In this document: piece after piece, positions 12,786 to 22,582 of the stretch
Layout: each line of letters opens with the position of its first letter
Numbering within the stretch: the first letter of the stretch is position 1
Assembly (NCBI GenBank): GCA_028708095.1
Contig: JAQVZQ010000003.1
Coordinates: 1-39,656, forward strand
Source of the DNA: Dysgonamonadaceae bacterium
Lineage (GTDB): Bacteria; Bacteroidota; Bacteroidia; Bacteroidales; Dysgonomonadaceae
Direction: 5' to 3'
DNA: 39,656 bases
Position numbers and translations under genes: made by a program
Notes under the pieces: model-generated
The model's database searches: none
The model's input: the letters and a program-made list of their open reading frames with translations, nothing else
What the model was told of the DNA's origin: nothing

Positions 12786-14645
12786 ATGAAAAAAATATTT
12801 TTTACAACCATCGCAATACTTGTATCACTATTGATGTTGGGGCAAACCAACATCACACCATTCAAGTTTGCATTAATCACAGATACACATATTGGCAGTC
12901 CAAATAATGACGAAGATTTGCAGCGAACCATCGACGATATCAATCAAAATCAACCCGAAGTTGCTTTCGCAATCGTGTCGGGTGATATCACCGAGTTTGG
13001 CTCGGACGAAGAGCTGACCATTGCCAAAAACTTATTTGACCAGCTGAAAGTTCCTGCCTATATTATCCCTGGCAATCACGATTCCAATTGGTCAGAAAGT
13101 GGCACGAATAGCTTCTTGACCATATTCGGCACAGAGACATTCGGCTTTGAGTACAACGGATACAAGTTTTTTGGCTTGCCGTCGGGACCGAATATGCGCA
13201 TGGGACCAGGGCAAATTCCGAGGGAGGGCATTGAGTGGTTCAAACAACAATTGGCAGAAACCGACAAGGACATGCCGCTGATATTTGTGAACCATTACCC
13301 GATGAACAACACCCTCAACAATTGGTTTGAGGTGATGGATGCACTGAAACCATATAACATTAAGGTGATGTTGTGCGGACATGGGCACAATAATAGGAAG
13401 CACAACTTCGAAGGCGTGAACGCCGCCATGCTTCGCTCCAACTTGCGGGCAAAAAAAGATTACGGTGCGTATAATATTGTATCGGTTACCAAAGACTCCA
13501 TCATATTTCAAGAACGTGTGGTGTCGGGCGAAACCCTCGACCCTTGGCTCAGCTACGCTACCCATGATCGTACAAAATGGGAGGAGAACCCACCGCGTCC
13601 AGACTATAGCATTAACGATAATCATAACTTTGTTAAGGAAATTTGGTCGATGCAAGAGAGCGGAGATATGGGGGGCGGTATGGCATTACACAAAAATAAT
13701 TTGATATATACCAACACCAAAGGAGAAATAAAAGCGGTGAACGCACGCACAGGCAAAAAGCGTTGGAGCTACCAAACAGGGGGCAAAATATATTCCACAC
13801 CTGTCATGTGTAGCGACAAAGTTTGGGTAGCATCGACCGACAAAAACTTATATGGTCTGCGATTGAAAAATGGCAAACCTCTGCTTACATTGCCAAATGA
13901 CAAATCGGTGGTTGCATCGGCCGCTTGCGACAAAAACAGTGTGATACTTCCTGGTACAGATGGCAAATGCACGGCATGGAGTGCTAAGACAGGCAAACAA
14001 TTGTGGCAGTTTGACGAAATTGAGAACTTCACGTTAACTCGCCCATTGGTAAAAGATGGCGTTGTATATTTCGGAAGTTGGGGCAATGAGTTTTATGCAC
14101 TCAATACGTCAACTGGCAAATTGAAATGGAAGTGGAACAATGGACAAACCAATCGCATGTTTTCGCCCGCACAAGTAGTTCCCATCATTACGCACAACAA
14201 AGTTTTTCTTGCATCTCCCGACCGATTCATGACTGTGTTGGACGAGCAAACGGGTGCTATAATTTGGCGACACAACGACTTAGACAATCGCGTTCGCGAG
14301 TCAATTGGCGTGTCGGAAGATGGAAATACCATCTATGCCAAAACAATGGATGGCAATATTCTGGCAATTGATGCCACGATGAACGAGCGCAAAATAAAAT
14401 GGATTTCATCGGGCGAAGATATGGGCTACGAATTGACCCCCACACCTGTAGTTGAGAAAAACGGCGTTGTATATGCGCCCACCGACAAGGGTTTAATTTA
14501 CGCATATAGTGCCGCCGATGGCAGTTACTTATGGAAATATCGCATTGCAACGGGACTTATCAACATGATATTGCCGACTGATGCCAACGAACTCTATGTT
14601 TCGTCGATGGATGGCAAATTGATGAAGCTGAAAGTGATGAAATAG
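12786..14645 (+). CDS. Secreted metallophosphoesterase with PQQ-type beta-propeller
   Basis: A 619-residue exported protein with signal peptide MKKIFFTTIAILVSLLMLGQ. Residues about 25-220 are a calcineurin-like phosphoesterase with all the metal-binding motifs: ITDTHIG, SGDITEFG, PGNHDSNW, FVNHYP and CGHGHNN. Residues about 290-619 are PQQ/pyrrolo-quinoline-like propeller repeats, each ending with a Trp-containing motif (TGKKRWSYQTG, TGKQLWQFDE, TGKLKWKWNNG, TGAIIWRHND, DGSYLWKYRIATG). Propellers of this type usually serve as binding scaffolds. The combination suggests a phosphoesterase that docks to an envelope partner or polymer, but the substrate is not known. It follows the esterase gene by two bases. 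Confidence 0.85.
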   Translation: MKKIFFTTIAILVSLLMLGQTNITPFKFALITDTHIGSPNNDEDLQRTIDDINQNQPEVAFAIVSGDITEFGSDEELTIAKNLFDQLKVPAYIIPGNHDSNWSESGTNSFLTIFGTETFGFEYNGYKFFGLPSGPNMRMGPGQIPREGIEWFKQQLAETDKDMPLIFVNHYPMNNTLNNWFEVMDALKPYNIKVMLCGHGHNNRKHNFEGVNAAMLRSNLRAKKDYGAYNIVSVTKDSIIFQERVVSGETLDPWLSYATHDRTKWEENPPRPDYSINDNHNFVKEIWSMQESGDMGGGMALHKNNLIYTNTKGEIKAVNARTGKKRWSYQTGGKIYSTPVMCSDKVWVASTDKNLYGLRLKNGKPLLTLPNDKSVVASAACDKNSVILPGTDGKCTAWSAKTGKQLWQFDEIENFTLTRPLVKDGVVYFGSWGNEFYALNTSTGKLKWKWNNGQTNRMFSPAQVVPIITHNKVFLASPDRFMTVLDEQTGAIIWRHNDLDNRVRESIGVSEDGNTIYAKTMDGNILAIDATMNERKIKWISSGEDMGYELTPTPVVEKNGVVYAPTDKGLIYAYSAADGSYLWKYRIATGLINMILPTDANELYVSSMDGKLMKLKVMK

Positions 14646-14712
14646 GTCAACAAATCAGTGATTTTATTAACAAATAGTGTTGATGCGTGTAGAAAGTGGT
14701 CATAAAAATCAA

Positions 14713-14922
14713 CTTGGAGGGTTTCTGTACACAGAAAGGTACCTCGGGAGGTTACTTGGAGGGTTTCTGTGTGCAGAAAGGTATCTCGTTAACTAACATG
14801 GAGGGTTTCTGTGAGCAGAAAGGCATCTCGGGAGGTTACATGAAAGGTTTCTGTGAGCAGAAAGGTGTTGCGGGAGGTACGGTGACTACTTTCTGTTCAC
14901 AGAAAGTAGTGATCTCCTTCGA
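14713..14922. repeat. Array of five 42-bp direct repeats with palindromic cores
   Basis: Five head-to-tail units of exactly 42 bp start at 14713, 14755, 14797, 14839 and 14881, with no spacers. Units 1 and 3 agree at 36 of 42 positions; unit 5 is the most diverged. Each has a core TTTCTG-N4-CAGAAA, and in unit 5 the palindrome extends to 12-base perfect arms (14885-14896 and 14899-14910). Units 1 and 3 add a second small dyad around CTCGGGAG. The plus-strand frame is open through all five units, since 42 is a multiple of three, giving a 14-residue motif such as EGFCEQKGISGGY, but only a GTG start is available. This is probably a structured intergenic element rather than a gene. Confidence 0.85.
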
Positions 14923-14938
14923 TTGGAGGGTTATTCCA

Positions 14939-15064
14939 CCAATTTAGTATACGTTTTAAAAAATGCGGAGGGTAAATTGGTCGATTTAGGGTGCGAATTT
15001 AAAAAAGTGATGCCTTTTTCTGTCGATTTAGGGTACACTATTAAAAATGTGTATGCTTTTTCAC
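14939..15064. repeat. Second family of 42-bp repeats, two clear units and one degenerate
   Basis: Units at 14981-15022 and 15023-15064 both begin TCGATTTAGGGT and agree at 30 of 42 positions. The preceding 42 bp (14939-14980) agrees with the first at 23 of 42 and looks like a decayed copy. The family differs in sequence from the array just upstream but has the same unit length. Plus-strand frames are closed by the TAG in TTTAG. The rest of 14646-15306 contains only AT-rich DNA and the promoter below. Confidence 0.7.
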
Positions 15065-15262
15065 ACGAATAAGTTATATATTTTTGAAGTATGTAAGGTC
15101 ATTGCAACCAAAAAGAGCATTTTGCAATATTGCCAAGAGATTTTTTATTTACTTTAATAGGAGAACTCAAAAAAAAGGTCACTCTAAAACTAAATCACAA
15201 CCAATTTGACAAAATATGCAGACATAAACTGTAAAACACCTCTCCAAATTAACTAAAAACAG

Positions 15263-20842: not shown

Positions 20843-22342
20843 TTAAAAAGGAGCTATATATACTTCTAATGGTGCCAAACTATTCTTTTCCAGATTATCA
20901 ACTTTTAAAGGCACAGTGCTAGTTTTACTTGTATTTGTTGCAATAATATATTTCTGCCCTTTGTTATCTTTCTTAATCATTAGGTGCATATCATTATCGT
21001 CTCTCTTTTCTAATGTCTTTAATCTAATGATATCTAAGTTGCCTTTCATCTCTTCCAGAGTTGGCTGCAAAGCATCCCAAACCTCTTGTCCACTCGGATT
21101 GTTCCAAAAGAAAACACCAGTTGCTCCATGAGTAATTGAAGTATACATTTGGCATTTAATCTGTTTAATATAATTATCTACGGGTACGTTTCCTCTTGCG
21201 TATCCATTACCGTCAAAAAACAGCCAAATAGGAACTTCTGGGTCACCTAAACCTGCTCTGATTGCATCAACAGTAAGTCCTGCTAAAATGGGATTTGCTG
21301 CAAAATCTCTAAAAGCGTTAATTCCAAATGCATTTCCATTTCCTTTGTAAGCCTCAGCGTATGCTTTTATGTTTTCGTAGTGGTAAGACTTTAATTGTTC
21401 AAGTGAATAAGATGTGTATGAGTAACTAGTTGGTGAGAATTTATAAGCAGGAACTCCATTAAATCCTTCAAGAAATCCCAGTAATGGTAATCCATTATTA
21501 TTTAGAGCATGATTAGCATACTCTTGAGCTGATTCATTAATCATTTCATATGGAGGGCTATCAGGCATTGATGAATGATCCTTTAGGTATCTTTTTTCAA
21601 AGAAATATGTACTCCCCTTTCCATGTCCGGCTAAATCAGCAAAAACAATGGGATTGGCATTAGGGTCTTTTTGTTTCTCAAGTTCTATTATTTTTTTATA
21701 AATCCAATCTCCAACAACAGGTGGTGTATACCAGTAATTCGAAGCTAACCCCATTGATACCTCATCAATAGGTAGGTAAGCTCTCTCTACATTTGGATAT
21801 TCGTTATACATATGATTTGCAAGTTCATTTGACAGTTTATTTTTCAATATATTGTCACTTTCAATGTTTTTCAAATACTGGCTCTCATAATAGCCTTTTT
21901 CATTCCCTTTGTTCTTGATATCTGGTTGTCTACTCAAAAAATCCATTAAAATATAAGATGGCCTTATACTCATATATATGATATCTTTTCTCTGTTGGCC
22001 AATGTAATGAAAAGATATATTTATATTACGTGATTGCCTATTATATACACTTACAGCATTGGGATCATTAGCTTCATATCCAGGAATACGCCATGCACCA
22101 ATGGGGAAGAACTTTTCTGTTTCACCATTTGTTTTTTTCAAAAACCAAGCCTCTTCAACTAAACCCTCCTCCTCTTCTTCTTCTTCTTCTTCTTTGTTCT
22201 TGTCTTCTTCTTTGTCTTTACCCTCTTCTTCCTTTTTTTCTTCCTCTTTGTCAGGAGGAATTAAACTGTCATCGTTATCATTACAGCCGATTAAAAAAAC
22301 AGTAAATAAAAAAAGGAGCAATGTGAGATTTCGTAAGTACAT
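20843..22342 (-). CDS. Glycoside-hydrolase-like lipoprotein, tandem copy 3, with Glu-rich linker
   Basis: First-transcribed and most diverged of the triplet: 499 residues with lipobox FLIGC (Cys20). After the cysteine comes NDNDDS and then about 35 residues almost wholly Glu, Lys and Asp, encoded by a CTT-type trinucleotide tract, before the shared AWFLKKTNGETEKFFPIGAW. Acidic residues directly after the lipid cysteine resemble the Bacteroidota surface-export signal, so surface exposure is likely but inferred. The Glu of the FNEGFNG motif is kept (LEGFNG), as is the PIDEVSMGL block. The longer charged linker may hold the domain away from the membrane. Confidence 0.6.
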   Translation of the reverse strand: MYLRNLTLLLFLFTVFLIGCNDNDDSLIPPDKEEEKKEEEGKDKEEDKNKEEEEEEEEEGLVEEAWFLKKTNGETEKFFPIGAWRIPGYEANDPNAVSVYNRQSRNINISFHYIGQQRKDIIYMSIRPSYILMDFLSRQPDIKNKGNEKGYYESQYLKNIESDNILKNKLSNELANHMYNEYPNVERAYLPIDEVSMGLASNYWYTPPVVGDWIYKKIIELEKQKDPNANPIVFADLAGHGKGSTYFFEKRYLKDHSSMPDSPPYEMINESAQEYANHALNNNGLPLLGFLEGFNGVPAYKFSPTSYSYTSYSLEQLKSYHYENIKAYAEAYKGNGNAFGINAFRDFAANPILAGLTVDAIRAGLGDPEVPIWLFFDGNGYARGNVPVDNYIKQIKCQMYTSITHGATGVFFWNNPSGQEVWDALQPTLEEMKGNLDIIRLKTLEKRDDNDMHLMIKKDNKGQKYIIATNTSKTSTVPLKVDNLEKNSLAPLEVYIAPF

Positions 22343-22506: not shown

Positions 22507-22582
22507 TAATGATAGAAGATATATTTTAGAATTAATTCTCAAGATAATGATAGAAGATATATTTTAGAATTAATTCTCAAGA
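22507..22582. repeat. Perfect 38-bp tandem duplication
   Basis: 22507-22544 and 22545-22582 are identical, head to tail. The second copy contains the stop codon of the small membrane-protein gene ending at 22577. Each unit contains the dyad AGAATTAATTCT. Confidence 0.9.

Follow-up and report, generated by a model that had tools for sequence, protein, structure and literature searches.

One of five dispersed intergenic arrays of 42-bp tandem units, each built around the palindrome TTTCTG-N4-CAGAAA, lies in the 39,656-nucleotide stretch of DNA analyzed here (the window). We estimate an about even chance (roughly 0.5) that these arrays have spread as an intergenic minisatellite and line up sites to which a dimeric protein binds.

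The window array consists of five head-to-tail 42-bp units, and its dyads span positions 14722 to 14905. A repeat search of the window placed the dyad copies at 14722, 14764, 14806, 14848, and 14890, with every step exactly 42 bp; in order, they read TTTCTGTACACAGAAA, TTTCTGTGTGCAGAAA, TTTCTGTGAGCAGAAA (twice), and TTTCTGTTCACAGAAA. TRF returned a period of 42, 3.9 copies, and 0% indels at 14715-14878. The motif TTTCTGNNNNCAGAAA occurs five times with at most one mismatch in the 39.7-kb window, always within the array, versus 0.25 expected occurrences, and none of 100 shuffled windows reached five matches. The sequence-only reading had described a seamless five-unit array located between a phosphoesterase unit and a fimbrillin-like gene and distinct from CRISPR, all of which was confirmed: the upstream neighbor is a metallophosphoesterase/PQQ-repeat gene that ends at 14645, the downstream neighbor is a fimbrillin-like gene (Mfa_like_1, DUF6359), and the 42-bp units follow each other without the unique spacers that separate the repeats of a CRISPR array. 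The limits given to the array had to be extended, since homology starts at 14627, a degenerate sixth unit precedes the five, and a second repeat family follows them. The features are as follows.

14627-14679, + strand: leader common to the window array and the array on contig C448, from a local alignment of window 14627-14935 with C448 2575-2843; it starts inside the final codons of the PQQ/metallophosphoesterase gene on the upstream side
14680-14721, + strand: degenerate sixth 42-bp unit (TTGATGCGTGTAGAAA...), 5' of the array, matched at 29.5 bits (E 0.0023) by a covariance model whose building alignment itself included this unit
14722-14931, + strand: the five 42-bp units; each combines dyad A (TTTCTG-YNNR-CAGAAA) with a GTTANNTAAC-like dyad B that is weaker and centered at +21 bp
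14885-14910, + strand: last dyad, whose arms extend to 11 base pairs, ACTACTTTCTG-TTCA-CAGAAAGTAGT; on its own a strong hairpin (-13.3 kcal/mol)
14935-15082, strand -: a further family of 42-bp repeats (CCTAAATCGACAGAAAAAGG...; also CCTAAATYGACAGAAAAAG...) next to the dyad array, from a TRF row at 14980-15062 and BLAST against the same genome

The unit is dimeric, with two dyads spaced on a 21-bp lattice: the weaker one (with TC..GA outside) is centered exactly 21 bp past the first. A mean of 4.35 of 9 positions formed Watson-Crick pairs at the +21 offset versus ∼2.2 at other offsets, a value that, given the 42-bp periodicity, is equivalent to a tendency of the first dyad's outer arms to pair. 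Twenty-one base pairs correspond to two turns of B-DNA, so dyads at this spacing all lie on one side of the helix.

A covariance model trained on 25 units was run over the full genome (3.76 Mb in 454 contigs) and detected exactly five arrays, ∼25 units in total, with nothing else above noise and no single copies of the unit. A scan with the dyad pattern found, besides the window array, 42-bp arrays on C72, C166, and C448 and a decayed array on C28. The interval is exactly 42 bp throughout all five arrays despite the divergence between units, and all five are intergenic, flanked by unrelated genes. The neighbors of the other four are as follows.

C72 array: AsnC and tRNA-Gly; upstream of a HEAT/GH2-like gene
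C166 array: an ORF without a Pfam match and an rlmD-like RNA methyltransferase gene
C448 array: an RNA-binding-protein-like ORF (assigned by eye) and CrcB/UvrD
C28 array (decayed): DUF2807 and an outer-membrane efflux protein

The neighboring genes differ between the window and C448 arrays. As the alignment of these two arrays begins at 14627, the copied piece takes in ∼90 bp ahead of the first full dyad. Searching 101 genomes of the family (three congeners) with the TTTCTG dyad-pair pattern gave no match outside this genome. In congener G003, the rlmD locus is present with no array upstream of rlmD; in congener G002, the ortholog of the PQQ gene ends differently, with no array downstream. The gene neighborhood of the C448 (CrcB) locus in a congener differs from that in the array-bearing genome. 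We also observed that the final codons of the PQQ/metallophosphoesterase gene, stop included (14627-14645), lie inside the copied element and encode KVSGI* where the congener has KVMK*, a difference suggesting that the element may have replaced the 3' end of this gene.

The dispersal of the arrays bears on the main rival explanation, a passive mobile minisatellite of the BrickBuilt/MITE or REP-like type, in which a transposase would mobilize non-autonomous DNA in trans and would alone recognize the dyads. This explanation is compatible with the binding-site reading, and we consider it possible, if on the unlikely side. The five dispersed intergenic copies, the leader and array shared by two loci with different neighbors, and the array-free orthologous places in the two congeners all speak for it, as does the precedent of BrickBuilt in the same order; the absence of single copies from the genome argues against it, and no terminal inverted repeats were seen by eye at the ends of the shared element, for which two copies are long enough to compare. 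BrickBuilt of Porphyromonas gingivalis (Klein et al. 2015, PMC4596501) is a minisatellite/MITE with a 23-nt unit and 19 elements, many of which have a leader and a tail ending in terminal inverted repeats, and its copy number varies between strains (PMC4596501). The present arrays resemble it in being spacer-free tandems, intergenic, dispersed at unrelated genes of one genome, limited to one species of Bacteroidales, provided with a leader next to the repeats, and without an Rfam match. In contrast, they number five, each 42-bp unit (2 x 21) contains an invariant 16-bp dyad, and a leader is found in two arrays, with no tail or terminal inverted repeat by eye in the two copies that can be compared; the strain variation of BrickBuilt has a counterpart only in the cousin array of G250 and G488 described below. 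BrickBuilt is the nearest described kind, and the present feature is an intergenic minisatellite with unusual anatomy. REP palindromes typically number more than 100 in a genome and often alternate in orientation in BIMEs (PMC2817692). REP/BIME elements with their RAYT transposases (PMC2817692, PMC3733652) are, like the present arrays, short intergenic repeated palindromes that are sometimes regularly spaced, whereas here the genome has only multi-unit head-to-tail arrays with ∼25 units altogether. The literature searched on such arrays yielded only BrickBuilt and REP work, and within it Bacteroidales intergenic minisatellites are described only for P. gingivalis.

The dyad is constrained in sequence. 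Across 23 units, identity was 95% at the twelve arm positions, 43% at the four central positions, and 47% at the other 26. The contrast between the arms and the remaining positions (47%) gave a permutation p of ∼1e-5 and is somewhat overstated, since the units were picked partly by their dyad. The window array showed 0 substitutions in the 12 arm columns versus at least 41 in the other 30. At the loop edges, position 7 is Y and position 10 is R in 23/23 units. Pair changes between the arms were not above those of shuffled arms in this genome, which indicates that the exact bases are conserved rather than pairing as such. The sequence-only reading had proposed the reverse, namely conservation of the dyad rather than of exact bases, and had suggested arm covariation as a check; neither the substitution counts nor the covariation analysis upheld this proposal. 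The conserved quantity is the exact sequence of the arms and not just their pairing.

This constraint weighs against an RNA element, in which the transcribed array would fold into tandem hairpins within a 3' UTR or leader and act on mRNA stability or termination. Both strands do fold better than shuffles (z of -5.6 and -5.9), and the last dyad is by itself a strong hairpin, but surplus folding energy is expected of any tandem palindrome, isolated dyads are weak (-3.5 kcal/mol), and the array has neither the Rfam match nor the compensatory pairing of a structured RNA family. We regard an RNA function as quite unlikely, and of the hairpin and the protein-binding site initially offered as alternatives for each copy, the protein site stays plausible while the hairpin is weak for isolated dyads.

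That the array is translated, as a peptide repeating every 14 residues (FCxQKxISxxxxxx) within an 83-aa ORF at 14696-14947, is highly improbable. Stops are rare in one forward frame (2 across 23 units versus 9 to 28 in the others), and 21 and 42 are multiples of 3. However, codon position 3 is the least variable outside the dyad (0.43 versus 0.57 and 0.51), the window and C448 arrays differ by 15 nonsynonymous to 3 synonymous codon changes, no Pfam match was obtained, and some copies contain stops. A coding origin was rejected on the codon-position diversity and the nonsynonymous excess.

In order to look for similar arrays elsewhere, we searched 393 Bacteroidales genomes with a degenerate dyad pair, allowing gaps that give periods of 21 to 51 bp, and 10 genomes matched. 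Among the matches listed, the array loci (this genome, two loci in G417, G250, and G138) always had a period of 21 or 42 bp, and the non-array matches among the 10 genomes were pairs at 32-33 bp. G138 carries a 42-bp array of TTTCTGTCAACCGAAA with a weak second dyad in between, the same anatomy as in this genome, and 21-bp arrays are present in MAGs labeled Prevotellaceae (L034) and Dysgonamonadaceae (L035). A 21-bp dyad array downstream of uvrB occupies the same locus in G250 (L057, contig C133) and G488 (L153, contig C75), with ∼20 units in the former versus 7 in the latter and flanks that are 89-95% identical. The G250 array is the only one with within-array covariation (p 0.003), TTCCG..CGGAA switching to TTCAG..CTGAA. 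Similar arrays occur sporadically in other Bacteroidales lineages. Across lineages the arms are TTTCNG/CNGAAA, including at L195, where pairing is partly lost, which fits recognition of a double-stranded DNA sequence. A chance or neutral one-off tandem duplication, for which the absence of the arrays from congeners might speak, is hardly credible given five arrays, arm conservation, exact phasing, and cousins in other families, and the one-off case that the sequence-only reading had named as its refutation is contradicted by the other arrays of this genome and the cousins in other Bacteroidales.

Two 33-bp pairs from the search, one within a long ORF (G159) and one upstream of a GTP-binding elongation-factor-like ORF (G166), were judged to be chance or unrelated sites. 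No phage, plasmid, or viral sequence matched the array, and the hits of a generic TTC-N8-GAA triple pattern in viral contigs were mostly to low-complexity or coding repeats. Separately, a viral-collection contig (L107, IMGVR_UViG_3300031772_004851) has a perfect 21-bp array of TTCCTGTGCAGGAACGGGGGG at 26-123.

Dyads of the same type also occur in promoters. At four of the loci with 32-33-bp pairs, from four Bacteroidales families (L190/L056, L191/L059, L192, and L193), two or three copies of TTTC[T/A]G-N4-C[A/T/C]GAAA lie at that spacing just upstream of an AAA_14-DUF4143 ATPase gene; these genes are the G432 query and orthologs that share 59-78% identity with it. The dyads close to the gene start are TTTCTGTAAACAGAAA, TTTCAGTTGACTGAAA, or TTTCTGTTAACTGAAA, and their inner arm position changes between lineages. 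Such a promoter position is typical of operators, and these dyads look like a conserved operator of the AAA_14-DUF4143 gene. The array-bearing genome had no ortholog of this ATPase at E 1e-100. It is conceivable, although doubtful, that one Bacteroidales DNA-binding protein family reads TTTCNG-N4-CNGAAA dyads set on the helical repeat, with the 32-33-bp pairs serving as operators of AAA_14-DUF4143 genes and the long 21/42-bp arrays serving in some lineages as chromosomal docking or titration sites.

Rows of protein-binding sites account best for these observations. A near-invariant palindromic core within a freely mutating remainder makes the arrays look like protein sites lined up along one side of the DNA, not like genes or RNA hairpins, and fixed arms on a constant helical phase, a free center, and operator-like use in promoters are together most consistent with binding sites of a dimeric protein. 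Clustered operators and iteron-type sites bound by dimeric proteins likewise repeat a dyad in direct orientation at an integral helical phase. In contrast to such arrays, those described here lie at five unrelated intergenic places with no common adjacent replication or regulator gene. The window array would accordingly be one copy of a lineage-specific dispersed minisatellite whose invariant dyad is most likely an operator-like site of a putative homodimeric protein. This protein would load side by side along the array, and the resulting cluster may organize or insulate intergenic DNA or may titrate a regulator; arrays would grow by tandem duplication and be copied into new intergenic places. 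Several observations run counter to the binding-site reading. As the genes flanking the arrays share no function, no regulon is apparent, and docking, insulation, or titration by the putative protein is what we infer. Multiples of 21 preserve a reading frame as well as a helical phase. Since the arrays are absent from congeners and most Bacteroidales, any function is not conserved, and recent spread or gene conversion, instead of selection, could have kept the arms fixed. Invariant dyads locked to two helical turns and recurring in unrelated families point to a putative DNA-binding protein, for which the dyad provides a precise bait sequence.

Further 42-bp families in the genome were sought by BLAST and the covariance model. 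The second family, adjoining the dyad array, recurs by BLAST on contigs C166, C253, C339, and C75 of the same genome, likewise as arrays with a few units each. Elsewhere in the window, a perfect 38-bp tandem duplication (22507-22582) lies immediately 5' of an uncharacterized ORF (20843-22342, - strand), and the N-terminal region of this ORF is encoded by a TCT-rich repeat at 22170-22250.
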